Assembly (NCBI GenBank): GCA_024653205.1
Contig: JANLFO010000001.1
Location: forward strand, 124,001 to 188,000
Source: Clostridia bacterium
Lineage (GTDB): Bacteria > Bacillota > DSM-521 > Neomoorellales > SLTJ01
Direction: 5' to 3'
DNA: 64,000 nt
Shown here: piece by piece, positions 21,845-43,729 of the stretch
How the letters are laid out: every line of letters begins with the position of its first letter
Numbering within the stretch: the first letter of the stretch is position 1
Translations under genes and position numbers: made by a program
The notes under the pieces: generated by a model
Told to the model about the DNA's origin: nothing
The model's database searches: none
The model's input: the letters and a program-made list of their open reading frames with translations, nothing else

Positions 21845-23839
21845 ATGGGGCAGAACCGAGTAGAAAGGGTTTATCGTCTCTGGGAGGCCGTTGTTTTTCG
21901 GCGCGGCAGTCCCGACACGGCGGCCAGGTACGTGGACCCGGCCATTATTCAATCGTGGCAGCGGTGTCTGTCGAGGAACCTCAGTCCCGAGCGGCCGGTA
22001 GCCAAGCGGCTCGACGACGGCGAAATAAGAGCCCGACGAAAGCAGTACGCCAGGCTGATCGAGATTGCCCGGCTCTTTCTGGAGCGGCTCTACCACCTGG
22101 TTACGGGTTCCGGCTTTGTAGTGGTTCTGCTGGACCGGGAAGCCTGCATCCTCGAGCTCATGGGCGACGAAGAAATCCTCAATCGGGACTACTACTTTCG
22201 GGTGGGCGAATTCTGGGACGAAGAAAGCAAGGGAACCAACGCCATGGGCCTGGCCAAGGTGGAGCAGAAGCACGTGCAGGTGTACGCCACCGAGCACTAC
22301 TGCCGGGCTAACCACTGGCTGACTTGCTCTGCCGCTCCCATCCGCAACGAGGACGGCGAGATGATCGGAATTCTCGACGTCTCCGGGGACTACCGGCGGG
22401 CTCACGCCCACACCCTGGGAATGGTGGTGGCGGCCGTTCAGGCCATCGAGAATCATCTGCGCTTGGAAGCGGCCGGTGCGGAGATCTCTCGTTCCTACAG
22501 CAATATTGCCGCCATAGTGGAGGCCATCTCCGACGGGCTGGTATCCTTTGACCACCACGGATCGGTGACCATGGTGAACCACGTGGCGGCCAGGATGCTG
22601 GGGGTCACCGTAGCCGATTGCCTGGGACAGCCGCTGGACAAGATGCTCAACCTGCCGACGGCGACCATTAGGAATATCATTGAGGGCCAGCAGGTGCTCA
22701 CCGATCAAGAGATCTTCGTAGACACGGGGCGAGGCCCCATGTATTTCCTGATGTCCGGGCGGCCGATACTGGACGGAGAGCAGAAGGTGTGCGGGGGCGT
22801 GGTCACCCTGCGGCCCATGGGCAGCGTGCACAGGTTAATAACCAAGATGGTGGGCGCGAGTGCGCGTTTCACCTTCGAGGATATTCTGGGCAGCAGCCCG
22901 TCCATCCGCCGGGCCATCCAGGCAGCCAAGTCGGTGGCGCGCAGCACGTCGACCGTATTGCTGGAAGGGGAGAGTGGAACCGGCAAGGAGATGTTCGCCC
23001 AGGCCATTCACAACGCCAGCCCGGTGGCGGCGGGGCCGTTTGTGGCCATAAACTGTGGGGCAATTCCCCGGGAGCTGGTGGAGAGCGAGCTTTTCGGGTA
23101 CGAGGAGGGGGCGTTTACCGGCGCCAGGCGCGGCGGTCGGCCGGGCAAGTTCGAGCTGGCCAACGGCGGGACGGTTTTCCTGGACGAGGTGGGCGACATG
23201 CCCTGGGAGACGCAGGCGGCCCTCCTGCGGGTGCTTCAGGAGAAACAGGTGGTACGGGTGGGTGGGTTAAAGCCAATCCCGGTGACCATCAGGGTGATCG
23301 CCGCGACCAATAGGGATCTAAAGAAGGAAGTGGAGAAAGGCAATTTTCGGGGCGATCTCTACTACCGGCTCAACGTGGTAAGCATCAGGGTGCCGCCGCT
23401 GCGCGAGCGCAGGGAAGACATCGCCCTTCTGGTTCAGCACTTCATCCAGAAGTTTTCCGCCCTCTTACGCATGCCGCCCAATGAGATAGACCCGGCGGTG
23501 CTGGACATATTCTACCTCTATTCCTGGCCGGGAAACGTTAGGGAGTTGTCCAACCTGATCGAGAGGGCGGTCAACCTGGCCCAGGGAAAGCCCATTGCCG
23601 TTGAGCATCTGCCCGACTACCTGCAGGCGATGCTCAAGGCCGGCGGGACGGCCAACCTGACGGTCCCCCACTTGCCGGAGGCGGCGTTTTATCGTCAGCA
23701 GCGCCAGCTGATAGTAGAAACGCTCGAGACGGTTGAGGGTAACATTGCCAAGTGTTCGCGCGTGCTGGGCATCAGCCGGAGCACCCTGTACCGAAAGCTC
23801 AAGAGATACGGGATCAGCGTGCCTCGAAAGATCATGTAG
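21845..23839 (+). CDS. Sigma-54-dependent enhancer-binding activator, AcoR-like
   Basis: ATG at 21845, with GGGGAGGGG upstream, gives 664 residues. Domain order: GAF-like sensor ~70-220 ([20 protein letters not shown]), PAS ~230-340 ([20 protein letters not shown]), AAA+ ~355-590 with Walker [16 protein letters not shown], the sigma-54 contact loop [12 protein letters not shown], Walker B FLDEVGDM and the arginine-finger region, then a Fis-type HTH at the end ([19 protein letters not shown]). This is the AcoR/DhaR architecture, whose GAF domains sense small organic molecules such as acetoin or dihydroxyacetone. A palindrome and a sigma-54 promoter follow directly, so the C1 gene cluster is its probable target. 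Confidence 0.92.
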
Positions 23840-23843
23840 CACC

Positions 23844-23866
23844 TGTGTCAGGCAACAGGTGACACA
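23844..23866. promoter_or_regulatory. Palindromic upstream activating site
   Basis: TGTGTCA (23844-23850) and TGACACA (23860-23866) form an inverted repeat with a 9-bp centre, overlapped by a second one, CACCTGT/ACAGGTG. Its centre is about 90 bp upstream of the -24 element at 23947, the usual distance for an enhancer of a sigma-54 activator. Confidence 0.65.
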
Positions 23867-23946
23867 TGCTTCAGATTGGGCCACAGGCCGCGCACCTGCG
23901 GCACGCAGAAAGGGCCTGGCAGCTGCACTTCATCCCTAAGAGGGGC

Positions 23947-23962
23947 TGGCATGGTAGTTGCG
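23947..23962 (+). promoter_or_regulatory. Sigma-54 (-24/-12) promoter of the DUF2193 / C1 cluster
   Basis: TGGCATGGTAGTTGCG matches TGGCAC-N5-TTGCW closely, with GG and GC at the required 10-bp spacing. Transcription would start near 23974, about 33 bp before the GTG of the DUF2193 gene. Confidence 0.8.
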
Positions 23963-24006: not shown

Positions 24007-25488
24007 GTGAGTGAAGCCCTTTATTCCAAGATGGCGGCCGAAGCCATGGCCGCACAAAAGGCGGACCTCGAGGTGATCAGGGAAAAGCGCGGTAGCCGTT
24101 TTCGCGTTACCGACGCCAAACCCTACGTGGACGCGGTCAACGGTATGCAGCCCGCCGAGGGGCAGAGTGCGGAAGTCTTCCGGCTCCATGTGGATTCGGT
24201 CAATGCCCACTACCAGATTCTCTGCCAGCTCACCGACACGGTGCGGCCAGAGGATGATCCCTTCGTAGAGCACTATCAGACGCCGGCGGTTCTGGAAATC
24301 CTCTACGCACTGGACCCGCCCTTCCGCAGGGCGGTAGAAGCCTTCATCAAAGCCATCGAGGATAACGAGGTGCTTATCGGCCGGGAGGCGGTCCGCCGCT
24401 ACGGGGGCTTTTACGGCCCCACCTGCGTGGTGGACTTTGCCTTCTGCCCCGGCTCAACCCGCAACGTGGTGAATACGATCCTGAACGGTCTCGACATCGA
24501 TAGGGCGTACAAGCAGGCCATCCTGTCGGCCAAGTCCTGGGGAATGAATACCTCCTACGGAATAGGGGCGGCTTTCGCCGCGGCGCTGGAAGCCGGGAAG
24601 ACGGTTGCCGAAGCGGTAAGGGCAGAGATCGAGACCCTCAAGCTGGTCTACGATCGGCCGATCGAGGCCCAGGCCAAGCTCATGGCCGAGGCCGGCCATG
24701 CCTCGTTCGACGTGAAAGCCTACATGGAAAGGTATAAGGAGAGCATCAAGCCCGCGGTGGAGGCGGCGGTCAAGGCCGGAGTCCACTACGGCAACATCGT
24801 AACCGTACCCGCTTACTGTGTGGGAGATGTGGCCCACCACATCAGCCAGTCGATGTACAACATGGCCAAGGACGACGTAACCATGGCCATCATCGACGCG
24901 GTTTCCCGGGTTATGGAGGAAACCCTGAACCACGGCCTGCAGCAGGGCTACAAGAGCGCCTACGACGTTCTCAGCGTGGCCACCGGATCTACGGCGGCGG
25001 CCACCGCCTACATCCTGGAGAAAGACGGGTTTACCGTTCCCATGGTGGTCGATCTGCTGGTTAAGCGTTTCACCAACTACGTCCAGATGTACCCGAACCG
25101 GGGAGCGGCGGCGGAGCTGCATAACTGCGACTTCATGGACATGATCCTCCGGGGCGCCAAGATTCTGGAGCCCGCGCCCATAGGTTCGGGCGGCAAGGTG
25201 CGCGGCGTGGAGGTGCAGCTCGCTCCGGTGGACCAGAACGAGGTGCTGAGCAACCCGCAGCGGTACACCTATCCCGCTTGCGCCATAACCGTGAGGTTCT
25301 CTTCGCTGATGCGCCTGGCCGACTTCCCCTGCCTGCTCACCAGCGAGCCGGTGACCGCCACTCTGATGACCAACATCATCGCCCTGGAGCCGACAAAGCC
25401 CGGTTCGCCGGCGCGGGTGTGCAAGGACTGTGCGGTGTGCACGCTGGTCAAGCGTCACAACCACTGCAACTGGAAGGAAGCGGTGTAA
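24007..25488 (+). CDS. DUF2193-family protein (methanogen-type, function unknown)
   Basis: A 493-residue soluble protein starting GTG. The sequence (RRYGGFYGPTCVVDFAF, SAKSWGMNTSYGIG, GVHYGNIVTVPAYCVGD, AAAELHNCDFMDMI, NPQRYTYPACAITVRFSSLM) corresponds, as I recall it, to DUF2193, a family reported almost only from methanogenic archaea. The C-terminus carries a cysteine cluster C-x2-C-x2-C-x8-C (residues 472, 475, 478, 487), suited to an Fe-S cluster or zinc. It is the first gene after the sigma-54 promoter and is followed by a MIP channel and the H4MPT cluster, so a role in bringing a C1 substrate into that pathway is a reasonable inference. The reaction is unknown. Confidence 0.75.
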   Translation: MSEALYSKMAAEAMAAQKADLEVIREKRGSRFRVTDAKPYVDAVNGMQPAEGQSAEVFRLHVDSVNAHYQILCQLTDTVRPEDDPFVEHYQTPAVLEILYALDPPFRRAVEAFIKAIEDNEVLIGREAVRRYGGFYGPTCVVDFAFCPGSTRNVVNTILNGLDIDRAYKQAILSAKSWGMNTSYGIGAAFAAALEAGKTVAEAVRAEIETLKLVYDRPIEAQAKLMAEAGHASFDVKAYMERYKESIKPAVEAAVKAGVHYGNIVTVPAYCVGDVAHHISQSMYNMAKDDVTMAIIDAVSRVMEETLNHGLQQGYKSAYDVLSVATGSTAAATAYILEKDGFTVPMVVDLLVKRFTNYVQMYPNRGAAAELHNCDFMDMILRGAKILEPAPIGSGGKVRGVEVQLAPVDQNEVLSNPQRYTYPACAITVRFSSLMRLADFPCLLTSEPVTATLMTNIIALEPTKPGSPARVCKDCAVCTLVKRHNHCNWKEAV

Positions 25489-25650: not shown

Positions 25651-26400
25651 ATGGCTTACTCCCTGGGAAAGAAGTTTCTGGCCGAACTCATCGGCACCTG
25701 GATGCTGGTGATCGTGGGGCCGGGAGCCGCCGCGGTGACGCTGATGTTGGCAGCGGGCGAGCAGAAGGCCTCCAGCTTTAACATCGGTATCGGGGCCCTC
25801 GGCGGGCTGGGAGACTGGTTTGCCGTCGGCATGGCCTTCGCCATCATTATCGCCGCCGCCATATACGTTTTCGGCCCGGTATCGGGGTGCCACATTAATC
25901 CCGCCGTGAGCATAGCGCTGTGGGCGGGCAAGAAGCTTCCGGCCAAAGAGCTGGTACCTTACCTGGTGGCTCAGTTTCTGGGTGCGGCGCTGGGCTCTCT
26001 CACCTTGCTGGGTCTGCTGGGGTACGAGGGCTCCACGGTAGGCGGGCTTGGCGCTCCCGCTCCCTTCCCGGGACTTACCGTTTTCCAGGCTTTCTGGGCC
26101 GAGACTTTCGGCACCTTTGTTCTCATGTTGACCATTATGGGCATCGCCGTGGATCGCAGGGCTCCGCAGGGCTGGGCCGGCCTCATCATCGGTCTCACCG
26201 TGGGCGGTCTGATCACCACCCTGGGCAACATTTCGGGTTGTGGCATCAATCCGGCCCGTACTTTCGGACCCTACCTGATCGACAGCCTGGTAGGGGGCCC
26301 CAACCTCTGGGCCAACTTCTGGGCTTATCTGGTGGGGCCCATTATCGGAGCCCTTTTGGCGGTCCTGGTTTATGAGGGTGTGGTGAAGCAGAAGGAGTAG
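25651..26400 (+). CDS. MIP-family channel (aquaporin / glycerol-facilitator type)
   Basis: ATG at 25651, with AAGGAGGAG upstream, gives 249 residues and six membrane helices. Both pore half-helices are present: SGCHINPAVSIALW (~84-97) and SGCGINPARTFGPYL (~200-214). MIP channels pass water, glycerol or other small neutral solutes. Its place between the DUF2193 gene and the H4MPT cluster suggests passage of a small C1 compound or polyol that feeds the pathway, but the sequence alone does not tell the solute. It is separated from DUF2193 by a strong hairpin. Confidence 0.9.
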   Translation: MAYSLGKKFLAELIGTWMLVIVGPGAAAVTLMLAAGEQKASSFNIGIGALGGLGDWFAVGMAFAIIIAAAIYVFGPVSGCHINPAVSIALWAGKKLPAKELVPYLVAQFLGAALGSLTLLGLLGYEGSTVGGLGAPAPFPGLTVFQAFWAETFGTFVLMLTIMGIAVDRRAPQGWAGLIIGLTVGGLITTLGNISGCGINPARTFGPYLIDSLVGGPNLWANFWAYLVGPIIGALLAVLVYEGVVKQKE

Positions 26401-26414: not shown

Positions 26415-26479
26415 GGCCCGGGGCGTTCCCGGGCCTTGACGGTGCCGGGGGGCGTCCTGCGCTCGAACGGGACGCCCCC
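26415..26479. other. Two adjacent GC-rich hairpins before the H4MPT cluster
   Basis: Stem 1 is 26415-26422 with 26428-26435; stem 2 is 26448-26457 with 26470-26479. Neither is followed by a T tract, so they are more likely mRNA processing or stability elements than terminators. Confidence 0.5.
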
Positions 26480-26498
26480 TCACGGAGGGGAGACAGAG

Positions 26499-27518
26499 AT
26501 GGGCGGGGTACGGGTACGCACGGGAGCCAGGTTGCACCTGGGCCAGCTTGACCTGTGCGGGAACCTCGGTCGGAGGTTCGGCAGCGTAGGGGTGGCCATC
26601 GAGCGCCCCGGTTGGGAGGTGGTGGTCGAACGAGGTTCGGGGCTTCGCGTGGAAGTATCGGGGGAGGTCGAGGAGAGTGCCGCCTCCCGGGCGGCGGCCC
26701 TGGTGCAGGAGTACCTGGATCATTACTCCCTGCCGGGGGCCCGCCTGCGCATTCTCAGCTCCATACCTGCCCACAGGGGGCTGGGGTCGGGAACCCAGCT
26801 GGCCCTGGCGGTGGGCGTAGCGGTTACCCGGCTGTACGGCCTCCGCCCTTCGGTTTGGGAACTGGCGCAGGTAACCGACCGGGAGGGGAGCCGATCCGGC
26901 ATCGGGGTGGCGGCCTTTGCCCATGGCGGCCTGGTGGTTGATGGCGGTCTGCGGGTGCCTTCTCCCGGATCGCCTCCACGGCGTTCCCTTCCGCCGGTAA
27001 CTGCCCGGATTCCGTTTCCCAGGAGCTGGGGAATTGTGGTGGGCCTGCCGCCCTCCGTCCGGGAAGTGGCCGGGGAAGAGGAGGCAGCAGCCTTCGCCGG
27101 GCTCGAACCCATGGACGAGGGGACTGCCGGGTATCTCGCCCGCCTGGTCTTGATGAAGCTTCTGCCGGCGGTGGTGGAGGAGGACCTGGTGGCCTTTGGA
27201 GAAGCGGTCACCGCCATGCAGAAGACGATCGGCGGGTACTTTGCTTCCGTCCAGGGAGGGGTATTCTCCACCGGGCTGGGGGCGGAGCTGGCGGAATTCT
27301 TCTTGCGGCACGGAGCGGCAGGGGTGGGCCAGAGTTCCTGGGGGCCGACGGTCTACGGGTTTGCTCCCCGCGGGAAGGTCGAGGACCTGGTGAGAAAGGC
27401 CCGGCTGGCTTTCGGTGCTCGCGTTCAGGTTTTCGGTGCGGCCGCCATGAACCGCGGCGCCCTGTGCGGTCCGGCCGAGGAGAACACCATGGCCCTTTAC
27501 GGACGGGGGAAGAACTGA
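26499..27518 (+). CDS. mptG: Beta-ribofuranosylaminobenzene 5'-phosphate synthase (H4MPT biosynthesis)
   Basis: A 339-residue GHMP-kinase-fold protein; GGAGGGGAGA precedes the ATG. RVRTGARLHLGQLDL near the N-terminus and the phosphate loop SSIPAHRGLGSGTQLALAV (~86-105) are typical, as is REGSRSGIGVAAFAHGGLVV. The enzyme joins 4-aminobenzoate (or 4-hydroxybenzoate) to PRPP with loss of CO2, the first committed step of the methanopterin aryl-ribitol side chain. It is the marker gene for H4MPT in bacteria. It opens a tightly packed run of cofactor genes. Confidence 0.88.
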   Translation: MGGVRVRTGARLHLGQLDLCGNLGRRFGSVGVAIERPGWEVVVERGSGLRVEVSGEVEESAASRAAALVQEYLDHYSLPGARLRILSSIPAHRGLGSGTQLALAVGVAVTRLYGLRPSVWELAQVTDREGSRSGIGVAAFAHGGLVVDGGLRVPSPGSPPRRSLPPVTARIPFPRSWGIVVGLPPSVREVAGEEEAAAFAGLEPMDEGTAGYLARLVLMKLLPAVVEEDLVAFGEAVTAMQKTIGGYFASVQGGVFSTGLGAELAEFFLRHGAAGVGQSSWGPTVYGFAPRGKVEDLVRKARLAFGARVQVFGAAAMNRGALCGPAEENTMALYGRGKN

Positions 27519-27522
27519 ACCC

Positions 27523-28062
27523 ATGAGCATTGCCTGGGGGATTACCGGCGCGGGACATTTTCTCCGGGAGTGCGCGGAGCTTCTCCGTTCGCTGAAGGAA
27601 GTGGACGTATTCGTTACCGAGGCAGGGTATCAGGTGCTCAGGAGTTACGGGCTCCTCCAGACGATCCAGGAGGCGGCGCGCCGGTTCTACCGGGACGATC
27701 GGAACGGTAACCGGGCGGTAGGCCGCCTGTACACCTCGATCTACCGCCTGGTGGTGATCGCCCCGGCCACCTCCAACTCGGTGGCCAAGATGGCCTGCGG
27801 GATATCCGATACGGTGGTCACCAACCTTTTCGCCCATGCGGGCAAGTGCCGGATACCGCTGGTAGTGCTTCCCACCGATACGACAGGGGAGGTAGTCTCC
27901 GAAGCTCCGGGCCGAAGGCGGGTGGTGGCTTTTCCCCGTCCGATAGATCTGGAAAACGCGGAGCGCCTTTCGTCCTGGCCGGGGGTGACGGTGGTCCGCA
28001 GTACTGAAGAACTCGGGGACCGGCTTCGGGCTTGGGTCAGGGATAGCGGTCGGGCCGGCTAG
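27523..28062 (+). CDS. Archaeal-type flavoprotein (AfpA/DmrB-like) of the H4MPT cluster
   Basis: A 179-residue protein of the HFCD (flavoprotein) superfamily: WGITGAGHFLRECAELLR binds FMN phosphate, and VVIAPATSNSVAKMACGISD is the family's P-A-T-x-N-x-x-A segment. Homologues in methanogens and methylotrophs include dihydromethanopterin reductases that convert H2MPT to H4MPT. That role fits here, because the cluster otherwise lacks a reductase for the last pterin step. The gene starts 5 nt after mptG. Confidence 0.75.
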   Translation: MSIAWGITGAGHFLRECAELLRSLKEVDVFVTEAGYQVLRSYGLLQTIQEAARRFYRDDRNGNRAVGRLYTSIYRLVVIAPATSNSVAKMACGISDTVVTNLFAHAGKCRIPLVVLPTDTTGEVVSEAPGRRRVVAFPRPIDLENAERLSSWPGVTVVRSTEELGDRLRAWVRDSGRAG

Positions 28063-28072
28063 GGGGTGCAGG

Positions 28073-29443
28073 ATGTACGTCTTCGTTACCGGAAAGCTGG
28101 CCGCCAGGGCGTTGGAGCGGGAAGTGGCCGGGATTCTTCCGCCCGGCGGCTATGAGATCAAGGTGCTGGACCGCCGGGTGGCGGCGCTGATGAGTACCGA
28201 ATACATCGCCCGCTGCTTGGCCCGGAGTGTGTGGCCCGCCCGGCCCGAAGTTGTGGTCATACCGGGAAGGTGTGTGGGGCCCCTCGAGCCCATACAGGGG
28301 GCAACCGGCAGCCGGGTCCTCCGCGGCCCGGACGACCTGAAGGACCTTGCCGTCTTCTGGAGGCAAGAAATGGGCCTGGAGGGGAGAGATCCTCCCGGGG
28401 AGGATGCCCGGCCGCCCCGGAGACCCCAGATCCTGGCGGAAATCGTGGATGCCGCCGGGCTGGGCAGGGAGGAGATCCTCTGCCGGGCCCGTTATTACCG
28501 CGAAAGCGGCGCGGACATTATCGACCTCGGATGCTTTGCGGATAGGCCATTTCCCGGTCTGGGGAAGGTGATCCGGGCGCTCAAGGACGAAGGTTTCCGC
28601 GTGAGTGTGGACGGCTGCCGGTCTGAGGACCTCCTGGAAGCAAGTGAGGCGGGGGCGGACCTGCTCCTGAGCCTAAGCCTCCGCCACCTGCCCCTGATTC
28701 CCGAACTCTCCTGCCCGGCGGTGGTGATCCCCGAGGAGGAAGACGACCTGGCGTCCCTGTACCGGGTGATCGAGGCTATGGAGAGGTGGGGCAGGACCTA
28801 CGTAATCGACCCCATACTCCAGCCGCCCGGGCTGGGGTTGGCCCGGTCCCTGGAGCGTTACCTGCGCCTGCGGCACGAGTTTCCGGACAAACCGTTCCTC
28901 ATGGGGTTGGGAAACGTCACCGAACTGGTGGATGCAGACAGCATCGGGATCAACGCTTTGCTGGTGGGGATAGCCTCAGAACTGGAAATAGACTACGTCC
29001 TGACCACCGAGGTCAGCGCCCGGGCCGTGGGTGCGGTGCGGGAAGTAGCCCTTGCCCGCCGCCTCATGCACCGGGCACGGACTCTGGGCAGATTGCCCAA
29101 GCACGTGGACTACGGCCTTCTGGTGCTTAAGGAACCGCGGCGGGAGGTGTTCGGTGAGGAAGAGCTGACGGAGATGCAGGCCCTGGTAAGAGACCGCCAC
29201 TATCGGATTTTTGTAGGGGCGGAAAGCATATACGTCTTCAACCGCTCCGTCTTCGTCCGCGGCCGCCGCGCCGAGGAGTTGTTCGAGGCGCTTGACGTGT
29301 CGGACCCCGGGCACGCGTTCTATCTCGGCCGGGAGCTGGAGAGGGCCGAGACCGCCCTTCGGCTGGGCAAGAAGTACGTTCAGGATTGCCCGCTGCGGTG
29401 GGGATACCTGGATGAGCGGGACGGCAGGGGGAGGAGTTCGTGA
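28073..29443 (+). CDS. Dihydropteroate-synthase-related protein of H4MPT clusters
   Basis: A 456-residue protein with an N-terminal domain (~1-100, VFVTGKLAARALEREVAGIL) and a TIM barrel related to dihydropteroate synthase (YRESGADIIDLGC at ~145; VSVDGCRSEDLLEASEAGAD; PFLMGLGNVTELVDADSIG). This is the archaeal DHPS-like family (TIGR00284 as I recall) found with H4MPT genes in methanogens and methylotrophs. It probably helps couple the pterin and arylamine halves of the cofactor, but the exact reaction is not settled. The last 4 nt overlap the next gene. Confidence 0.75.
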   Translation: MYVFVTGKLAARALEREVAGILPPGGYEIKVLDRRVAALMSTEYIARCLARSVWPARPEVVVIPGRCVGPLEPIQGATGSRVLRGPDDLKDLAVFWRQEMGLEGRDPPGEDARPPRRPQILAEIVDAAGLGREEILCRARYYRESGADIIDLGCFADRPFPGLGKVIRALKDEGFRVSVDGCRSEDLLEASEAGADLLLSLSLRHLPLIPELSCPAVVIPEEEDDLASLYRVIEAMERWGRTYVIDPILQPPGLGLARSLERYLRLRHEFPDKPFLMGLGNVTELVDADSIGINALLVGIASELEIDYVLTTEVSARAVGAVREVALARRLMHRARTLGRLPKHVDYGLLVLKEPRREVFGEEELTEMQALVRDRHYRIFVGAESIYVFNRSVFVRGRRAEELFEALDVSDPGHAFYLGRELERAETALRLGKKYVQDCPLRWGYLDERDGRGRSS

Positions 29444-30057
29444 TCCGGGAGACCATAGTGTCCAGCGCGGACGCGGCGGGAAACCCCAACTTTGCCCCGA
29501 TGGGGGTGGTCGTGGAGGAGGCAGACATCGGGCGCGGGGCGGAAATAGGGCTCCGGGTGTACCGGGGGTCGCGAACCGGGGCCAACCTTCTGGAAGTGCG
29601 ACAGGGGGTAGTCAATCTCGTCGACGACGTGCTGCTCTACGTAACCACGGCCCTCTTCGACGCCCTACCGGAATGGGAACCGTCGTTCGCGGTGCGTCCG
29701 CCGGGGATGAGAGGCGCGCCGGGGCGGTGGGAATTCGTTGTAGTGGCGGCGGAGGAGGAGGTGCGGCGGGGAGCAAGGGTTGACCGGGTTACCGGCCGGG
29801 TGGTCCACACTGTGGGCGGCCACGGCGGGTTCAAGGGCTTTTGCCGGGCCCAGTGGGCGGTGCTGGAGGCCACGATAGCCGCTACCCGGGTGGGTTATGT
29901 GGGACCGGAGGTTCTGGCCTGCTGGGACTACTGGCAGAGGCTGGTGGAAAGGACCGGCGGTCCCCGGGAGAAGACGGCCTTCCGCCTGGTACGTGACTAT
30001 CTTGAGGCGCGGGGCCTCAGACCTCCGGTGCCGCCGGCGGGACGGGCGGGTTCGTGA
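29440..30057 (+). CDS. DUF447-family flavin-binding-barrel protein
   Basis: A 205-residue protein starting GTG, overlapping the previous stop. IRETIVSSADAAGNPNFAPM and EIGLRVYRGSRTGANLL match DUF447, a split-barrel FMN-binding-like family of methanogens and H4MPT-using bacteria. It is conserved in these clusters, and mutants in methylotrophs suggest a role in H4MPT synthesis, but no reaction is known to me. The C-terminal ~80 residues are helical. Confidence 0.75.
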   Translation: MIRETIVSSADAAGNPNFAPMGVVVEEADIGRGAEIGLRVYRGSRTGANLLEVRQGVVNLVDDVLLYVTTALFDALPEWEPSFAVRPPGMRGAPGRWEFVVVAAEEEVRRGARVDRVTGRVVHTVGGHGGFKGFCRAQWAVLEATIAATRVGYVGPEVLACWDYWQRLVERTGGPREKTAFRLVRDYLEARGLRPPVPPAGRAGS

Positions 30058-30091
30058 TCGGTGAAAGCTTCGGATCGGAGGTGAGGAGACC

Positions 30092-30946
30092 GTGAGACCG
30101 GTCCTGCTGCACCTTGACGTTGACCCCAAGCCTAGCGCGTTCGACCTCATCACCGCCTGTGACGCGGGGGCAGAGGTGGTCCTCCCGTACGGCGGCGTGA
30201 CGCCCGGGGAAGTCGGCGCCCTGGTGTACGGGGCACTGTTCACCCGCAAGGTGTCCCACCTGCGGCATACGGCCATATTCGTTGGCGGTTCTAAAGTGGA
30301 CGAGGCGGAGGAGGTCATGGGGCAGGTTCTCAAGACCTTCTTCGGACCTTTCCGGGTTTCGGTAATGTTCGACGCCAACGGCTGCAACACCACGGCTGCG
30401 GCGGCGGTCAGAAAGATGGCTTCGGCTCTGAAGCTGGAGGGCAGAAGGGTGCTGGTGTTGGCCGGAACCGGGCCGGTGGGGCTCAGGGCGGCGGCGTTGC
30501 TGGCTCGCGAAGGGGCCAGGGTCAGGCTCTCCTCCCGAAGCCCGGATAGAGCCCGGTCCGCGGCCGAAAAGCTTCGGGAGCAGCGAGGCCTGGAGGTGGA
30601 GCCCATCTGTGTCACCGGAGGGGAGGACCTGGAGGCAGCCCTGAACGGAGCAGAAGCAGTACTGGCCTGCGGCGCTGCCGGCGTCAGGCTGGTGCCCGGA
30701 GAGACCTGGGTTTCCCGGCCTGAACTCAAGGTGCTGGCAGATGTGAATGCGGTAGAGCCTTTAGGGATCGAAGGTATCAAGGCCACGGACGACGGTGAGG
30801 AACGGGAAGGCAAGATCGTGTTCGGCGCTCTGGCCATCGGCGGGCTGAAGATGAGGATTCACCATACCGCTTTGGGCAGGCTGTTCGAGGCCAACGACCA
30901 GGTTTTCGACCTGGAGGAGATCTACGAGCTCAGCGGGCACCTATGA
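30092..30946 (+). CDS. mtdB: NAD(P)-dependent methylene-H4MPT dehydrogenase
   Basis: A 284-residue protein starting GTG with GGAGGTGAGGAG upstream. HLDVDPKPSAFDLITACDAG, FTRKVSHLRHTAIFVGGS and FFGPFRVSVMFDANGCNTTA are the substrate-side signature of MtdA/MtdB. The Rossmann half follows with VLVLAGTGPVGLRAAALLAR. It oxidises methylene-H4MPT to methenyl-H4MPT with NAD(P)+, or the reverse. This bacterial type is unrelated to the F420-dependent Mtd of methanogens, so electrons go to a nicotinamide. Confidence 0.9.
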   Translation: MRPVLLHLDVDPKPSAFDLITACDAGAEVVLPYGGVTPGEVGALVYGALFTRKVSHLRHTAIFVGGSKVDEAEEVMGQVLKTFFGPFRVSVMFDANGCNTTAAAAVRKMASALKLEGRRVLVLAGTGPVGLRAAALLAREGARVRLSSRSPDRARSAAEKLREQRGLEVEPICVTGGEDLEAALNGAEAVLACGAAGVRLVPGETWVSRPELKVLADVNAVEPLGIEGIKATDDGEEREGKIVFGALAIGGLKMRIHHTALGRLFEANDQVFDLEEIYELSGHL

Positions 30947-32205
30947 AGAGCCAAGGCACGCTCCTTCTGGTGGGTACCAGTACCCGGGCGCTGGCCGAGT
31001 CGGCGGTCAGGTCGGGTTTTAGCGTAATGGGCTTCGACTTCTTCGCCGATATGGATCAGCAGGCTTTCTGCCCGGTGATTACCCCGGAGCGGCGAGGACG
31101 GAAGTTGACGGTGCCCGCCCTGCTCGAGCTGGCTCAGAACGAGATCCGGTCTGGCGCCGGCAAGGGCGGGGGTATAGGCGGCCTGGTCTTGGCTTCAGGG
31201 CCGGAAAACCACCCGGAGGCGCTGCGGTGGTTCTGGGAGAGAGGGCTGCTGCTGGGTAATTCCCCCGATACCCTGCAGCAGGTTAGGAATCCGTTTCGGC
31301 TGGCCGAGGCCGTCAGGGATACGGGCGTCCGCTTCCCGGAGACCTACCCCTGGGAGCAAGGGCCCCGGCTGCCGGGCGGAGCCAGGAGGTGGCTGGTGAA
31401 GCCGCTTCGGGGCGGCGGCGGTCGAGGGATCCGGCCGCTGCCGCCTGCGGGTCGGTCACGGTCCGGTGCGGTAATCGCCGGCGAGGGGACTTGCGTCATA
31501 CAGGAATTCGTTCCCGGCCTGGCGTGTTCCGCCACCTTCGCGGCCGATGGGAAACGGGCGGTAGTGATCGGAGCCAGTCTCCAGCTCCTGGCCGGCCGGC
31601 CGGAAAGGCCGTTTGGCTACGGCGGCAACATCGTCCCCCTGATCCCTCCCGAAGCCCTAAGACCTCCCTTCTGGAGGGAGAGGCTGGTGGAGGCAACGCG
31701 GGCGCTGACGGCCCGGTTCGGCCTCAGAGGGCTGAATACGGTGGATTTCATCCTCAATGCGGAAGGCATTTGGATTCTTGAAGTAAACCCGAGGTGGTCC
31801 GGCTCGGTGGAGCTGTTCGAGCAATTGAGGGGAAAGCCGCTCTTCCCGCTGCACCTTTCCGCCTGCAGCGGCGAGGGTCTTGGCGACCGGGACGAAAGGG
31901 GCGGCGGGATGGGGTTGGCTTGGGGCCCTGACCTGGCCGGGTGCCCCGGGCCGGCCTGCCGGGGAAAGGCCATACTTTATGCGCCCTACGACTTTAAGGT
32001 GAGCCCGGAATGGCCCTGGGAGCAGCTGTACCGGTGGGGCATGCGGGATATCCCCCAGCCGGGGACCCCGGTGAAGGCGGGACGCCCGGTGTGCACGGTG
32101 CTGGCGGCCGGAGATTCTTGGGCTCACTGCCGGCGGCAGCTGGCCGCCAGGCTGGAGTGGGCGCTGCGGACGCTGGAAGGCAGGAGAATTCAGGCCGTGC
32201 GGTGA
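30943..32205 (+). CDS. ATP-grasp protein of the H4MPT cluster
   Basis: A 420-residue ATP-grasp enzyme overlapping mtdB by 4 nt. WLVKPLRGGGGRGIRPL and FVPGLACSATF are the ATP-binding loops; EGIWILEVNPRWSGSVELFE is the metal-binding end with the E-x-N pair. The C-terminal RGKAILYAPYDFKV segment is typical of the ATP-grasp protein found in methylotroph H4MPT clusters, required for H4MPT synthesis but of unknown reaction. It should form an amide or acyl-phosphate type bond in cofactor assembly. Confidence 0.75.
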   Translation: MKSQGTLLLVGTSTRALAESAVRSGFSVMGFDFFADMDQQAFCPVITPERRGRKLTVPALLELAQNEIRSGAGKGGGIGGLVLASGPENHPEALRWFWERGLLLGNSPDTLQQVRNPFRLAEAVRDTGVRFPETYPWEQGPRLPGGARRWLVKPLRGGGGRGIRPLPPAGRSRSGAVIAGEGTCVIQEFVPGLACSATFAADGKRAVVIGASLQLLAGRPERPFGYGGNIVPLIPPEALRPPFWRERLVEATRALTARFGLRGLNTVDFILNAEGIWILEVNPRWSGSVELFEQLRGKPLFPLHLSACSGEGLGDRDERGGGMGLAWGPDLAGCPGPACRGKAILYAPYDFKVSPEWPWEQLYRWGMRDIPQPGTPVKAGRPVCTVLAAGDSWAHCRRQLAARLEWALRTLEGRRIQAVR

Positions 32206-32214
32206 GGTTGGCGG

Positions 32215-33156
32215 ATGCTGAGACGGGATATCGCGCTGGCGGCCCAGGCCGCCTGCTGTCTGGAGGTGGCCGCGCCCAAGGTAGGCAACGTGAACCGTCA
32301 TCACGACTTTCCCGATTGCACCCTGGAGGACTTCCTTCTGAGCGCGGCGGCCATAGCCTGGGTGCTGGCAAAAATCGAGAGCTGCTCGGTGGGCCGGGCG
32401 GTCCTGGCGTGCGTGGAGGCCACGCGGGCCTGGGTGCCGGTCAACACCAATCTGGGAATCGTGCTCCTGTTCGCCCCTCTGGCGCGGGCCTGGGCAGAGT
32501 GGGCGCCGGGCGAAAGATGTGCCGACCCTTGCCGGATGGGCCTGGAAGTCCCGGAGTCCCTGCGCCGGACCCTGGCCCGGATCCTGACGGATTTGGGACG
32601 GGAAGACGCCGGCCACGTCTACCGGGCCATCCGGCTGGCCTCACCCGGGGGCCTGGGAAAGGCGGACACCCACGATGTTTCCCAGACCGAGCGGCCGGAG
32701 ATTACCCTGCTCGAGGCCATGAAACTGGCGGCCGAGCGCGACCTGGTGGCGGGAGAGTACGCGAACGGCTTCGCCCTGACTCTGGATGAAGCGCTGCCTG
32801 CCCTGGACCGGGCCCTGAGACGGGGACTGCCGTTGCCGGAGGCGGTGGCAGACGCCCACGTCTATCTCTTGGCCCGCGCCGGCGATACCCTGATCGCCCG
32901 GAAGAAAGGACGGGAGGCCTCTGGCGAAGCGTCCCTCCGGGCCCGGGCAGTCGGCGCCGCCGGGGGCTGGGGGACGCCGGCCGGCCGGGAGCAGGCGGCC
33001 GAGCTGGATCGGTGGTTGAGGGGCGGCGGAGGCCTTGGCCTCCTCAATCCGGGGTCCACGGCGGATATCGTCACTGCCGCCCTCTTTCTGGCTTTTCTAC
33101 TTCAGGGGCCCGGCTGGTGGAAGGAAGTACGGCCGGGAAGACGGGGGGTTGCCTAG
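32215..33156 (+). CDS. Triphosphoribosyl-dephospho-CoA synthase-like protein (CitG family)
   Basis: A 313-residue protein with VAAPKVGNVNRHHDFPDCTL at ~18-38 and NTNLGIVLLFAPLARAW at ~78-94, the CitG/MdcB core. There are no citrate lyase or malonate decarboxylase genes nearby. Members of this family sit in H4MPT clusters of methylotrophs and methanogens and are thought to act in cofactor synthesis, perhaps in the ribitol-ribosyl linkage, since CitG builds an alpha-1,2 ribosyl link. Confidence 0.75.
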   Translation: MLRRDIALAAQAACCLEVAAPKVGNVNRHHDFPDCTLEDFLLSAAAIAWVLAKIESCSVGRAVLACVEATRAWVPVNTNLGIVLLFAPLARAWAEWAPGERCADPCRMGLEVPESLRRTLARILTDLGREDAGHVYRAIRLASPGGLGKADTHDVSQTERPEITLLEAMKLAAERDLVAGEYANGFALTLDEALPALDRALRRGLPLPEAVADAHVYLLARAGDTLIARKKGREASGEASLRARAVGAAGGWGTPAGREQAAELDRWLRGGGGLGLLNPGSTADIVTAALFLAFLLQGPGWWKEVRPGRRGVA

Positions 33157-33171
33157 GAGGTGAGAGGAAGG

Positions 33172-33918
33172 TTGCCTGAGACCTCCCGGTCCGAAAAGGC
33201 GTGGCCGTTGCTCCTGGTTAGCGTGGTTTCTGCCCGGGAGGCGCTGGAGGCCCTCCACGGCGGGGCCGACGTGATCGACGTGAAGAATCCGGCCGAGGGC
33301 CCTCTGGGCGCGCCGCAGCCCCGAACGGTGGGCGAGATAATGCAGGCGGTAGCCCGACGAAAACCGGTGAGCCTCGCCCTGGGCGAATATCCCGGCCGGC
33401 CCACCTCGGCCGCCTGGGCGGCCTTGGGTGCCGCCGGCTTCGCTCCGGCTTACTTGAAGATCGGCTTTCCCGGCTGGGTGGAAAAGGAGGAAATCGACCG
33501 CACCCTGAAGCTGGTGGTGCAGGCGGTGGCTGAACTCGGGGGCGAGACACTTCCCCGGGTAGTGGCCGTGGGGTACGCCGACACCACGGGCCGTAGCTGG
33601 CGCCCGGCCGACCTGCCGGGGCTGGCAAAGGAAGCCGGAGCCGCGGGTTGCCTCCTGGACACCTGGGATAAGACGGGCCCTCCTCTGCCTAGAGTGACGG
33701 CCACCGCCGAGCTGGAGGCCTTTGTGGGGACCTGCCGGGCGAACGGCCTCACCAGCGGGCTGGCGGGCAGGCTGGGCGAAGAAGAGGTGGTCGAACTGCT
33801 CGCCCTGTGCCCCACGGTCATCGGGATTCGGTCCGCCGCCTGCGTGGGCGACCGGGTAAACGGGTGCGTCACGGCGGAACGGGTCGGCAGGCTCAAGCGC
33901 CTCCTGCAGCCGAGTTGA
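33172..33918 (+). CDS. mfnB: (5-formylfuran-3-yl)methyl phosphate synthase (methanofuran biosynthesis)
   Basis: TTG at 33172 is preferred because GGAGGTGA lies eight bases before it, giving 248 residues. LLVSVVSAREALEALHGGAD and VIDVKNPAEGPLGAPQP form the MfnB signature with the Schiff-base lysine in V-K-N-P; SLALGEYPG and PAYLKIGFPG follow. The enzyme condenses two glyceraldehyde-3-phosphates into the furan of methanofuran. Its 3' end overlaps by 26 nt the convergent HisA-like gene. Confidence 0.9.
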   Translation: MPETSRSEKAWPLLLVSVVSAREALEALHGGADVIDVKNPAEGPLGAPQPRTVGEIMQAVARRKPVSLALGEYPGRPTSAAWAALGAAGFAPAYLKIGFPGWVEKEEIDRTLKLVVQAVAELGGETLPRVVAVGYADTTGRSWRPADLPGLAKEAGAAGCLLDTWDKTGPPLPRVTATAELEAFVGTCRANGLTSGLAGRLGEEEVVELLALCPTVIGIRSAACVGDRVNGCVTAERVGRLKRLLQPS

Positions 33919-34705: not shown

Positions 34706-34757
34706 GGCTTCCTCCCGTTCGGACGATTCTCCCCTCGTTCTCTATGGTACAGGGAAA

Positions 34758-34792
34758 CTGCCGGCCGGTCAAAGGACAGGTTCGGCCGGCAG
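34758..34792. promoter_or_regulatory. Palindrome in the divergent intergenic region
   Basis: CTGCCGGCCG (34758-34767) and CGGCCGGCAG (34783-34792) are a perfect 10-bp inverted repeat with a 15-bp centre, between the HisA-like gene and the plus-strand gene. It could be an operator shared by both directions or a hairpin at the 5' end of the plus transcript. Confidence 0.45.
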
Positions 34793-34815
34793 CGCACCGG
34801 CTGCCAACCCAGGGG

Positions 34816-35994
34816 GTGGCAGGCCTGATTCTGGGTCTGGACATCGGTGGCGTCAACACCAAGGCCTGTTTCCTGTTTTCCGCTGCCGGAACTCCGGTCG
34901 GGGCAGGGGAGCCCCTGCGGTGCTGCGGGGTGAGCGTGAGCCACCAGGTATTCGCAGACGTGGAGGGTCTGGAGCGGGTCCTCGGGGGCTTGCGGAGTTC
35001 GGCCTCCCTTTTGGTGCCGGAGCAGAGGCTGCAGGCGGTAGGGGTAACCACAACCGCCGAACTCTGTGACGTGTTCGCGAGCCGCGTGGTGGGAGTCAGG
35101 CGGATACTCGAGGCGGTGAGAGCGGCCTTCGAGGGCGTACCGGTGTGGGTCTGGACCCTGGACTGCCGGTTTGAGCAACTCTCGTACGCTTACGACCGTC
35201 CGCTGGCGGCTGCCGCCGCCAACTGGCTGGCCGGGGCACTTGTGATGTCGCGGTGCTGGCCCGGTCCGGGCCCGGCCCTGCTGCTGGACATGGGCAGCAC
35301 CACTACCGATATCGTACCCCTCGTTCCTAACAAGGTGCTGGCGGCCGGATACACGGATCAGCAGCGCCTGGCCTGCGGGGAACTGGTGTACACCGGATTG
35401 CTGAGAACGCCGGTTCAGGACATAGCGGGGCGGGTCTATCTTGACGGCGCATGTTGCCGCACCACGGCAGAGTACTTCACCGTGGCGGGAGACGTCTACC
35501 GCCTTCTGGGGTGGCTGGATGCGGAGCAGTACGGTATCCCGGCGCCGGACAAGAGGTCGCCGGGACCGGTGGACTGCGCCCGCCGGTTGGCCCGGCTGGT
35601 GGCGCAGGACCTGGAAGCGATGGGATGGGAGGAGATCCTGCTGCTGGCCCACCAGGTAAAGGAAAAACACCTGAGCCTGGTACTGGAGGCCATCTGGCAG
35701 GTGCTTTCCAGAAAGGAGATCGCCCGTCTTCTCTTTCGGCCCGACCGTTTGGAGGAGAAAAGAGAGAACTTCCGGGTCTGGCCGGATGGCATCACGCTGA
35801 TACTTGCCGGCCTCGGCGTGCCTTTTCTGGCAGAGGTGGCCAGAAGGCTGGGGGTTGGAGCCCGGCGGTGGTGGGAGCTCGTGCCGGTTGCCGCTGCAAG
35901 CGAGGAATCCGGGGCCGGGGAGCCGGCGGCCCTGACCGCTTTCGCCGTCGCCTGGCTGCTGGCCGACTGCCTACAAGGCGGAGGCCGTAGATAG
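34816..35994 (+). CDS. Hydantoinase/oxoprolinase-like protein of H4MPT-linked C1 clusters
   Basis: About 392 residues of the ASKHA fold: LILGLDIGGVNTKACFLF at the start and LLLDMGSTTTDIVPLVP at ~155-171 are the two phosphate loops; QQRLACGELVYTGLLRTPVQ follows. This branch (one-carbon uncharacterised family, TIGR03123 as I recall) occurs with H4MPT and MF genes; disruption in methylotrophs affects the pathway, but the reaction is unknown. The GTG at 34816 has weak spacing to its ribosome site and a CTG at 34825 is an alternative start. It restarts the plus-strand cluster. Confidence 0.75.
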   Translation: MAGLILGLDIGGVNTKACFLFSAAGTPVGAGEPLRCCGVSVSHQVFADVEGLERVLGGLRSSASLLVPEQRLQAVGVTTTAELCDVFASRVVGVRRILEAVRAAFEGVPVWVWTLDCRFEQLSYAYDRPLAAAAANWLAGALVMSRCWPGPGPALLLDMGSTTTDIVPLVPNKVLAAGYTDQQRLACGELVYTGLLRTPVQDIAGRVYLDGACCRTTAEYFTVAGDVYRLLGWLDAEQYGIPAPDKRSPGPVDCARRLARLVAQDLEAMGWEEILLLAHQVKEKHLSLVLEAIWQVLSRKEIARLLFRPDRLEEKRENFRVWPDGITLILAGLGVPFLAEVARRLGVGARRWWELVPVAAASEESGAGEPAALTAFAVAWLLADCLQGGGRR

Positions 35995-36100
35995 TTCCGG
36001 CTGTGACCCGGTAACCGGCCGTGACCGGAGGTTAAATGCCTCTTGGTCGGGGCCGGTTGACCGAAAAGGCTTGCAGCCGCCGTGGCGGGGAGGGCGGAGT

Positions 36101-36766
36101 ATGGACAACCGTTCGGCCAAACCGCTGGTGAAGATTGGGGGTAGCCTGGTTTACCAACGAGACGGGGAGACTTTAAAGGAGCTCCTTGCCGTTTTGGGGA
36201 AGGCGGCCCGGGAAACCCCGCTACGGCTTGCCCTGGTGCCGGGCGGTGGCCCTTTTGCGGACGGGGTAAGGTACTGGTCGGCCGTGTTGGGATTGGGTCA
36301 GGAAGCAGCTCATTTCATGGCGCTAAAGGCTATGGACCAGTACGGCTACGTTCTGCACCACTTCCTGCCGGGAAGCCGGGTTCTGGAGATCTCCGGGCTT
36401 CGGAGGCCGGGGCAGGCGTTTCCTCCCGGGGTGCCGACGGTACTGTTGTGCGCCTCCTTCATGAGGAAGGTGCCGCCGGAGGAATTGCCGCGTTCTTGGG
36501 AGGCGACCTCCGATTCTGTAGCCGCCTACCTGGCGCGCCGCCTCGGGGCCGACCGCCTGGTGCTGGTAAAACCGGGATGTCCTTCGGCGATCCCGCCGGC
36601 CGAACTGGTAGATCCGTGTTTCCCGGAGCTGGTGCCGCCGGGGACAGACGCGTGGGTGGTGCAGGGGACGGATCCGGAGCTGGTGCTCAGGGCGGTTCTG
36701 GGGCAGGCCGAGGAAGGCCGGGGAGCGGTCAGGTGCCCTCCGGGGGGAAGAGGGGCAGCATGGTAG
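36101..36766 (+). CDS. mfnE: Amino-acid-kinase-fold methanofuran biosynthesis kinase (MfnE)
   Basis: A 221-residue protein; GGGGAGGGCGGAG precedes the ATG. KPLVKIGGSLVYQRDGETLK and LALVPGGGPFADGVR are the amino-acid-kinase phosphate loops; WEATSDSVAAYLARRLGADR and LVLVKPGC complete the nucleotide site. MfnE phosphorylates the aminomethyl-furanmethanol phosphate made downstream of MfnB to the diphosphate that is joined to tyramine. Its 3' end overlaps the next gene by 7 nt. Confidence 0.85.
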   Translation: MDNRSAKPLVKIGGSLVYQRDGETLKELLAVLGKAARETPLRLALVPGGGPFADGVRYWSAVLGLGQEAAHFMALKAMDQYGYVLHHFLPGSRVLEISGLRRPGQAFPPGVPTVLLCASFMRKVPPEELPRSWEATSDSVAAYLARRLGADRLVLVKPGCPSAIPPAELVDPCFPELVPPGTDAWVVQGTDPELVLRAVLGQAEEGRGAVRCPPGGRGAAW

Positions 36767-37794
36767 TCTTCGCCTACGAGTGGTTTTGTGCCCGTGGGGA
36801 AGTCGGAGCCGGGAACGGGGCCCTGGGCCGAGAGGGGTATGCAATGCTGGCGAGCCTAATCGGCGAGTTCCTAGAGATCCCGGAGGTGGAAGTGTTGACC
36901 GTTCTCCGGGAGGATCTGGTGCCACTTTTCCCCGCCGACCACCCTCGTCTGCAGATTCGGTGTTCCGGTTCCCCGCGGGCCTTTGCGGATTGTCTGTCCG
37001 GCTGCGAGGCGGTGGTGCTGATTGCCCCGGAAACCGGAAGGAGGCTCGAGGAACTGACCTCCCTGGCGGAACGGGAGAGGAAACCGGTGCTCGGGAGCAC
37101 GTCTCTGGGCGTTCGAAAGGCGGCGGACAAGGCAGCTGCCGCCGGCCTCTTGAGCCGACGGGGAATACCCGTGCCCGGAGGCCGTTCTTTTCCCTTGCGG
37201 GCGGTGCGGGAAGTGGCCGGTTCCTTGTGCTATCCGGTGGTGGTCAAGCCGCTGGACGGGGCCGGGACCACGGCCACGTTCCTGGTCCGGGACGGTGCCC
37301 GGCTGCGTGAGGCGGTGGAACAAATTGAAGCCGCTTCCGCCGTCTCCGCCTTCCTGGTCCAGGACTACGTGCCGGGAGAGGCGGTGAGCGTGAGCCTGCT
37401 GGTGTTGCCCGGCACGGGTCGTTGCCTGGCATTGAGCCTGAACAGGCAATTGGTGTACCTGGACGAGCGGGGAGTTTTCCGGTACCGGGGGGTTAGCGTG
37501 CCCTATGCCCATCCCCAGGCCCAGAAGGCACTCTCTCTGGCCGCCCGCGTGCCGGCGGCCCTTCCCGGCCTGGCCGGGTACGTGGGGGTGGACATGGTTC
37601 TCGGCCCGGCCGGCCCGGTGGTGCTGGAGGTCAATCCCCGCATAACCGACTCCTGGGTGGCTTTGGCCAGGGTGAGCAAGACCAACCTGGCGGCGGCGTT
37701 GCTGGACGCCTGTCTGCGCCTGCGGCTGCCCGAAGACTGGGCCGTAGAGGGGCAGGCCGAATTCCGCCTGGCCGAAAATCCCAACGGGAGGTGA
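36760..37794 (+). CDS. mfnD: ATP-grasp ligase, MfnD-like (tyramine-glutamate ligase type)
   Basis: A 344-residue ATP-grasp enzyme. VVFAYEWFCARGE at the N-terminus with LGREGYAMLASLIGEF is the family start; CYPVVVKPLDGAGTTATFLV is the ATP loop and GPVVLEVNPRITDSW the metal site. In methanogens this family attaches glutamate to tyramine for methanofuran. The assignment to that reaction is inferred from N-terminal pattern and from the position between mfnE and fwdD; other ATP-grasp proteins in the cluster could take this role. Confidence 0.65.
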   Translation: MVVFAYEWFCARGEVGAGNGALGREGYAMLASLIGEFLEIPEVEVLTVLREDLVPLFPADHPRLQIRCSGSPRAFADCLSGCEAVVLIAPETGRRLEELTSLAERERKPVLGSTSLGVRKAADKAAAAGLLSRRGIPVPGGRSFPLRAVREVAGSLCYPVVVKPLDGAGTTATFLVRDGARLREAVEQIEAASAVSAFLVQDYVPGEAVSVSLLVLPGTGRCLALSLNRQLVYLDERGVFRYRGVSVPYAHPQAQKALSLAARVPAALPGLAGYVGVDMVLGPAGPVVLEVNPRITDSWVALARVSKTNLAAALLDACLRLRLPEDWAVEGQAEFRLAENPNGR

Positions 37795-37800
37795 TCGCTT

Positions 37801-38145
37801 CTGACTACGGTTTTCGGAACCCTGATCACCGTACGGAGTCTGAAGCAGGGCGTATCCGTAGCCCGGGGCAAGCAAGCGCCCGAGTACCAGGAAACGGTAG
37901 CGGTATTGGAAATGGCGCGGGAGGACATGGGCCGACTGGGCATCGCGCCGGGCGGGAGGGTCCGGGTGCGGAGCCTTCACGGAGAGATCGTTGTCGCCTG
38001 CAGGGAAGCAGATCTCCCCGGCGGCCTGTTCTGCCTGGCCATGGGCCCGGTGGCCAACCGGCTGGTGGATCCGGATACCGGGGGTTCGGGAATGCCTGCT
38101 TTCAAGAGTACGGCGGTGAGTGTGGAGCCGTGCACGGGAGAGTGA
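37801..38145 (+). CDS. fwdD: Formylmethanofuran dehydrogenase subunit D (molybdopterin-binding)
   Basis: GGAGGTGA lies six bases before a CTG at 37801, giving 115 residues: VFGTLITVRSLKQGVSVARG, KQAPEYQETVAVLEM, then LGIAPGGRVRVRSLHGEIVV. The first ATG (37906) would remove the conserved A-R-G-K segment, so a CTG start is likely. This is the beta-barrel that covers the tungsto- or molybdopterin guanine dinucleotide in archaeal Fwd. The Fhc complex of methylotrophic proteobacteria lacks it. The gene sits 5 bp before fwdB. Confidence 0.85.
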   Translation: MTTVFGTLITVRSLKQGVSVARGKQAPEYQETVAVLEMAREDMGRLGIAPGGRVRVRSLHGEIVVACREADLPGGLFCLAMGPVANRLVDPDTGGSGMPAFKSTAVSVEPCTGE

Positions 38146-38150
38146 GGGGC

Positions 38151-41034: not shown

Positions 41035-41912
41035 ACGGGGTAGAAATCGAGGACACTTTTGCCGAGGCCTTCTCCATGTACGCGGCCCGGGTTACCATTA
41101 CCGCCGTTAGCGAACAATGGGCCCGGAAGGCCGCGGCTGCGGCCACCGGCTTTGCCACCTCGGTAATCGGCTGCGGCATCGAGGCGGGGGTGGAGGGGCC
41201 GGCTTCGGATACCCCCGACGGACGGCCCGGCGTGGACTGCCTCTTCTTCGCACCTCGCCGGGAAGACCTGGAGAAGCACCTCCTGCTGCGTATCGGCCAG
41301 GCGGTGATGACCGCTCCCACCACGGCTTGCTTTGACGGGCTGAGCAAGGAGCCGAACAGGGTAAACGTGGGCGGCAGGCTCCGCTTTTTTGGAGACGGCT
41401 TTCAGGCCAGCAAGGTGATAGGCGGACGCCGCTTCTGGCGCATCCCGGTCATGGAAGGCGAGTTTCTGGTAGACGAGGAATTCGGGGTGGTCAGAGGAGT
41501 CGGCGGCGGCAATTTCATCCTCATGGCCCGCTCGGTGGAGACGGCCCTGGAGGCGGCGGAGGCGGCGGTGGCAGCCCTAACCCCGGTGCGGGGCGTGATC
41601 GCTCCTTTTCCCGGCGGCATTGTGCGAAGCGGCAGCAAGGTGGGGTCCAGGTACAAGTTCCTCAGCGCCTCCACCAACGAGCGGCTCTGCCCCACCCTCA
41701 GGGGAAGAGTGGAACTGACGCTGGTGCCCAAGGAGGCGAACGCCGTGCTGGAGATCGTGCTCGACGGCCTGTCGCTGGAGGCGGTGCTGGAGGCCATGCG
41801 CCTCGGTATAACCGCAGCCTGTCGCGAAGGGGTGGTAAGGATAACCGCCGGCAACTACGGCGGGAAGCTGGGCAAGTATCAAATTCGCCTGCGGGACGTG
41901 ATGGAACAATGA
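41025..41912 (+). CDS. ftr: Formyl-MF:H4MPT formyltransferase
   Basis: TTG at 41025, after GGGAGGTGG, gives 295 residues. FLNGVEIEDTFAEAFSMYAA, then ARVTITAVSEQWARKAA and SVIGCGIEAGVEGP match Ftr (called FhcD in methylotrophs). It moves the formyl group between methanofuran and H4MPT. The open frame extends further upstream inside fwdA but that part is out-of-frame noise. Placed between fwdA and fwdC, it follows the bacterial habit of embedding ftr among the dehydrogenase genes. Confidence 0.92.
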   Translation: MFLNGVEIEDTFAEAFSMYAARVTITAVSEQWARKAAAAATGFATSVIGCGIEAGVEGPASDTPDGRPGVDCLFFAPRREDLEKHLLLRIGQAVMTAPTTACFDGLSKEPNRVNVGGRLRFFGDGFQASKVIGGRRFWRIPVMEGEFLVDEEFGVVRGVGGGNFILMARSVETALEAAEAAVAALTPVRGVIAPFPGGIVRSGSKVGSRYKFLSASTNERLCPTLRGRVELTLVPKEANAVLEIVLDGLSLEAVLEAMRLGITAACREGVVRITAGNYGGKLGKYQIRLRDVMEQ

Positions 41913-43719: not shown

Positions 43720-43729
43720 TCGCGGCGGG

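Follow-up and report, generated by a model that had tools for sequence, protein, structure and literature searches.

The window, by which we mean the whole 64,000-nucleotide stretch of Clostridia bacterium DNA analysed here, carries a sigma-54 control unit ahead of its C1 genes, an observation of the earlier note that is confirmed here. An activator gene, a probable operator, a -24/-12 promoter and a transcript led by the DUF2193 gene very probably make up a single inducible unit, as is indicated by the parts themselves, their conserved placement and the presence of RpoN. The unit heads about 20 genes of H4MPT/methanofuran C1 metabolism, with DUF2193 as the first. The host genome (2.46 Mb in 51 contigs, 98.8% complete) groups by kinship with Moorella sulfitireducens in the order that contains Moorella, whose members are anaerobes. 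A search for rpoN, proposed in the earlier note as a check, returned a single match to the Pfam profile (PF04552, E 3.6e-55), which leaves the sigma-54 reading unrefuted, and the same genome encodes six full-length sigma-54 activators (E ≤7.5e-64).

The promoter, CTGGCATGGTAGTTGCG (23946..23962, + strand), is of the GG-N10-GC type and reaches 0.92 of the highest score possible under a weighted sigma-54 consensus; this consensus and its weights were chosen by the analyst, and all box scores given below rest on them. In the 167-bp gap between the activator and DUF2193 genes such a box has p = 0.002 (1000 shuffles). Transcription would be expected to start at 23973 (+ strand), 12 nt past the C of the -12 GC (23961). 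The DUF2193 start, which had been put about 33 bp beyond this point, lies 34 bp from it (GTG 24007). On single-locus evidence both the box and the upstream dyad described below are moderately significant, and the promoter is accepted because the comparison of loci settles the matter.

The relatives of DUF2193 used in this comparison were taken from named genomes (best 80 of 280 loci) and from members of the phylum. At all 13 Bacillota loci outside Halanaerobium (L009-L021; named set, best 80 of 280), an activator gene immediately precedes DUF2193 in the same orientation. Two further loci (L104 and L105) share this arrangement, which together with the window makes 16. A -24/-12 box is found in the gap at all 16 Bacillota loci with the adjacent pair (relatives again partly from the best 80 of 280), scoring 0.82-1.00, its end 42-133 bp upstream of the start codon, with shuffle p-values of 0.001-0.019 for the individual gaps. 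The combined p of 3e-25 over the 16 loci is too good and overstated, because the loci share kinship. Nevertheless, fifteen related loci carry this kind of switch in the corresponding position, and the switch is therefore very likely real. Distances between activators and between DUF2193 proteins are correlated as well (r = 0.94, n = 15), much of which could be explained by shared species history alone.

Where no activator adjoins DUF2193, none of 43 upstream regions holds a box of at least 0.82 (best 0.81); these controls were picked by hand from 62 non-Bacillota loci (best 80 of 280), mostly those with 300 upstream bases, and the four Halanaerobium loci and L062 were scored apart. RpoN is encoded in 13 of the 14 tested genomes bearing the activator, the exception (G343) being 79% complete, and in none of the three tested Chloroflexi/Actinomycetes carriers of DUF2193 without it. 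In Halanaerobium, DUF2193 and RpoN occur together in 3/3 genomes; no good box precedes DUF2193 there (best 0.77-0.83 in all four loci), and no box of at least 0.85 was detected across 7.1 kb in the three cases examined.

The activator (a bEBP of 664 aa) is encoded at 21845..23839 on the + strand, downstream of an MFS transporter gene (19914-21128, + strand) that is not common to the relatives' flanks in the flank comparison. Its start was set from the sequence and the ortholog lengths at ATG 21845, which has GGAGGGG upstream, rather than at TTG 21728, where the listed ORF opens; the open frames of the orthologs measure ~651-685 aa. The assignment of the protein to the AcoR type with an intact GAFTGA loop was borne out by its domain order: GAF, PAS, AAA+ (with GAFTGA) and a Fis-type HTH follow one another in the AcoR/DhaR order, with matches to Sigma54_activat (E 2.5e-70), AAA_lid_14, HTH_8, PAS and GAF, and the best NCBIfam model is DhaR (NF008485; 457.9 bits, below its curated cut-off of 551). 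The sensory region of 14 relatives shows 34-66% identity to that of the window over its whole length, and in a fifteenth, which is cut (L012), the match extends over 66 aa. Meanwhile, three of the five other activators of the host genome give short, weak matches to this region. By these alignments the activators of the relatives are orthologs over the sensory half.

The activator would be made at a basal level and would sense its signal through the GAF and/or PAS domain, the signal being most likely a small C1-related molecule. Conserved control by an activator argues for a cluster that is induced rather than constitutive. The interpretation in the earlier note is thus supported in part; on its further proposals, GAF would be the domain that senses the inducer and the pathway would be catabolic. 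The unit might instead respond to the redox or energy state through PAS, or to the lack of a preferred carbon source, and not to a substrate through GAF. The PAS fold is indeed present, with a PAS_4 match (E 9.7e-13) stronger than that of GAF (E 4.3e-7), and the flanks of the unit share no substrate-specific enzyme family. However, dedicated ligand-sensing activators usually sit beside one pathway, and this activator adjoins a single pathway in all 16 loci; a redox or carbon-status signal appears rather unlikely.

Upstream of the promoter, the inverted repeat TGTGTCA-N9-TGACACA (23844..23866) is, on the strength of a half-site model built from relatives only, a probable operator (UAS) with altered spacing. 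It had been described as lying about 90 bp above the box, and indeed ~92 bp separate its centre from the TGG in the -24 element. The enhancer of the relatives was derived from an unbiased search of 64 x 21 = 1344 self-complementary trinucleotide dyads in 15 upstream regions (that of L003 partial). TGT-N11-ACA, a 17-bp dyad, ranks first, being present in 11 of the 15 regions against 0.88 expected (z about 11, the next-best dyad having z about 5). With L105 added, the exact form is found in 12 of 16 loci; it is missing from the window, L104, L010 and L016. L104, one of the two nearest relatives (activator 67% identical), has a weak site only, and the sites of L010, L016 and L021 are weak or partial. 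In many relatives the 17-bp sites stand in tandem with centres 17-18 bp apart (L009, L011-L015, L017), and L011 and L013-L015 have a third one ~72-75 bp upstream of the -24 element. The motif agrees with the enhancers of Clostridiales sigma-54 regulons, described in the portion of PMC6615313 available to us as TGT/ACA with a spacer of 10-12 bp.

The dyad of the window departs from this pattern: it spans 23 bp and reads TGT-N17-ACA. Hence the “textbook spacing” of the earlier note holds for the distances between UAS, promoter and gene and was dropped for the inside of the dyad, since the orthologous loci have N11 and the published class, as far as the available text of PMC6615313 describes it, N10-12. 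Within the window's upstream region no 17-bp TGT-N11-ACA site is present, and pairs spaced by N3 score poorly at best (p 0.05-0.06); the final 400 bp of the activator gene contain no N3-spaced site, and nowhere in the window does one score 13 or more. The half-sites themselves, however, are those of the relatives. In a model built from 26 sites of relatives with the window excluded (the use of their sites makes the relatives' own p-values circular), TGTGTCA and TGACACA tie for first place among the half-sites of the 106 bp that precede the box in the window, TGCTTCA being third. The dyad is significant because its halves match this model (p = 0.0015 for any spacing of 0-15; the N9 pair is beaten by 2 of 2000 shuffles). 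Its pattern is unique in the 2,455,280 bases of the genome, allowing up to two mismatches. Directly abutting it is TGCTTCA-N5-GGCCACA (23867..23885), a possible second, degenerate operator in which TGCTTCA is the third-best half-site and GGCCACA is weak. The layout, an operator abutting a TGC(T/G)TCA half-site, resembles by eye the 17-mers that lie in tandem in Moorella sulfitireducens (L009). Because of the matching half-sites and this resemblance, the dyad was kept as a probable operator, and it seems a reasonably good candidate for this lineage's activator operator with altered spacing.

It is unlikely, though it has to be weighed, that promoter and activator are real but do without the dyad as operator, the activator using degenerate or single half-sites or acting from solution. 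The window is alone among the 16 loci in having its best pair at spacer 9, the relatives having spacer 3. The DNA helix makes a turn in about 10.5 bp, and half-sites set 6 bp further apart would face a different side of it. Moreover, an inverted repeat alone is weak evidence, because some perfect 7-bp repeat arises in 12.3% of cases when the 106 bp are shuffled. Against this stand the exact identity of the repeat with the relatives' half-site, its position at the usual distance from the promoter and its uniqueness in the genome. The recognition helix differs too: SRSTLYRK is found in the window's activator only, its S being replaced in all 15 relatives (11 N, 4 T). It is quite improbable that the dyad serves a different regulator, such as a repressor, as an operator superimposed on the sigma-54 unit. 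Its geometry is unlike that of the orthologs, and its bases are shared by an overlapping repeat, CACCTG-N10-CAGGTG; but the half-site is identical with that of the orthologs' enhancer, and the second copy within two mismatches that a global regulator would be expected to have is absent. That box and dyad are non-functional products of chance, with the cluster read from a sigma-70 promoter, is hardly credible: consensus matches are cheap (8 sites of at least 0.82 in the whole window, both strands), but the box is kept in 16 of 16 loci and a simple scan of 23750-43700 returned no sigma-70-type site on the + strand (4 were found, all on the - strand).

With the dyad taken as the activator's operator, the activator would assemble on 23844-23866, and perhaps also on 23867-23885, and reach the promoter by looping of the DNA. 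Its GAFTGA loops would then use ATP to drive the opening of the RNA polymerase-sigma-54 complex at 23946-23962. The transcript, beginning near 23973, would carry the genes for DUF2193 and the MIP channel and, probably, those of the H4MPT/methanofuran pathway. The altered spacing constitutes a small natural experiment on the distance allowed between the half-sites of such an activator.

The DUF2193 gene (24007..25488, + strand) encodes 493 aa (PF09959, E 1.4e-248) from a GTG start that follows GGTGGGGG. Next comes a MIP-family, aquaglyceroporin-like channel (25651..26400, + strand; Pfam, NCBIfam), whose ATG at 25651 has GGAGG upstream. Within 26436..33918 (+ strand) Pfam and NCBIfam models identified beta-RFAP synthase, an AfpA-like flavoprotein, a DHPS-like DUF6513 protein, DUF447, an MtdB-like methylene-H4MPT dehydrogenase, an ATP-grasp protein, a CitG-like protein and MfnB. 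The + strand stretch 34744..45583 encodes MfnF-like, ATP-grasp, FhcB, FhcA, FhcD, FhcC, Mch, MptN-like and ADP-ribosylglycohydrolase-like proteins (NCBIfam), the last of which (44639-45583, + strand) marks the end of the C1 cluster and falls below the DraG cut-off. Since FhcA-D and Mch exceed their NCBIfam cut-offs and the MtdB-like protein is recognised by Pfam Mpt_N, genes of the H4MPT/methanofuran pathway are present. Strand and order alone would assign the genes of 34744..45583 to the same operon. One long transcription unit fits the + strand free of sigma-70-type sites and the number of terminator-like sites, which is at chance level in 23750-43700 (16 against 14.1 expected; simple scan). 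DUF2193 followed by a MIP channel gene is seen in archaeal loci too (L022-L024, L026-L028), and this adjacency suggests, at the level of gene order, a shared small uncharged substrate or product.

Among 19 sets of flanking ORFs, no family outside the known cluster that could represent a substrate gene was common to most. The widest family, found in 5 of the 19 sets, comprises small ORFs just before FhcB, which we guess may be FwdD. Other families occur in 3-4 sets and consist partly of wrong-strand ORFs or housekeeping-like genes.

DUF2193 proteins have about 490 residues, many of them invariant from bacteria to archaea, and many methanogens carry one. The AlphaFold2 model (46 sequences, mean pLDDT 85.5) is almost all helix. 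Neither Foldseek against the PDB (nothing at E ≤0.001, best 0.08) nor VIA-align (Z at most 5.0, with unrelated chains) nor a sequence search (best E 0.052) recognised a known fold for this predicted structure; the fold is not thereby shown to be new, and no function follows from the model. In the literature searched, DUF2193 appears only, in the available part of PMC9431491, as a Methanococcus voltae protein more abundant on pyrite and with possible Fe-S ligands.

Fae (PF08714) is absent from the 98.8% complete host genome, so the usual formaldehyde entry is missing. All 17 Bacillota genomes with DUF2193 that were tested (the host and 16 others) lack it, but so do all 15 tested Bacillota genomes that encode Mch and no DUF2193; of six DUF2193 carriers tested outside the Bacillota, three have it. 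This pattern across genomes does not single out DUF2193, and DUF2193 as a simple replacement of Fae was rejected. Because 15 of 15 genomes lack Fae without having DUF2193 and three of six have both, DUF2193 as entry enzyme is a proposal and not a finding. In the phylum sample Mch occurs in 25 and DUF2193 in 10 of 398 genomes, so DUF2193 is not obligatory for Mch. As a side observation, six Bacillota genomes without DUF2193 (G034, G095, G117, G150, G203, G227) have 2-5 Mch matches each, several of them only 1-5 kb apart, as tandem paralogs. Only tentatively, and with considerable doubt, can we propose an undescribed sigma-54 regulon that senses the substrate on which an anaerobic H4MPT C1 pathway without Fae runs, in which DUF2193 would be the entry enzyme loading C1 units onto H4MPT and the MIP channel would admit the substrate.

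The control unit belongs to a known type. Activators of the AcoR/DhaR class share the domain order, GAFTGA, the Fis-type HTH and a gene adjoining the target operon; unlike theirs, the target here is an H4MPT C1 cluster and not acetoin or dihydroxyacetone genes. The available text on Clostridiales sigma-54 regulons describes -24/-12 promoters with an adjacent activator, as found here, and its main text mentions neither “methanopterin” nor “Moorella” (PMC6615313). The H4MPT/methanofuran pathway of methylotrophs, so far as the accessible portion of PMC5020050 sets it out, has FhcABCD, Mch, MtdB-like and cofactor genes as in the window; unlike those aerobic organisms, the organism studied here has no Fae in its genome and has anaerobic kin, and its cluster has DUF2193 and a MIP channel at its head. 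RpoN sites have been placed before nitrogen genes in the part of PMC12403871 at hand, and H4MPT, formaldehyde and sigma-54 find no mention in PMC9768040 on strain DCMF, the source of one of the 16 loci; PMC12316311 contains none of five terms looked up in it. A literature search of limited depth returned no paper that had already described H4MPT genes as controlled by sigma-54; a sigma-54 regulon for a DUF2193-led C1 pathway is thus known in type, its target not having been found in print. The activator and its conserved promoter offer a handle on an anaerobic C1 pathway of Bacillota, its substrate and its entry step. A compound that switches on the promoter would be a direct clue to the food of the pathway, and DUF2193 would gain a physiological context from the control unit.

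A second -24/-12-like box, CTGGCATTGTTGTTGCT (21610-21626, + strand; score 0.91), lies 235 bp before the activator start. Ten of the 16 loci have no such box at 0.8 before the activator. Boxes of like score precede it in L009 (0.91) and L105 (0.89) and weaker ones in L018-L020 (0.81-0.82), and autoregulation of the activator through the box at 21610-21626 is possible.
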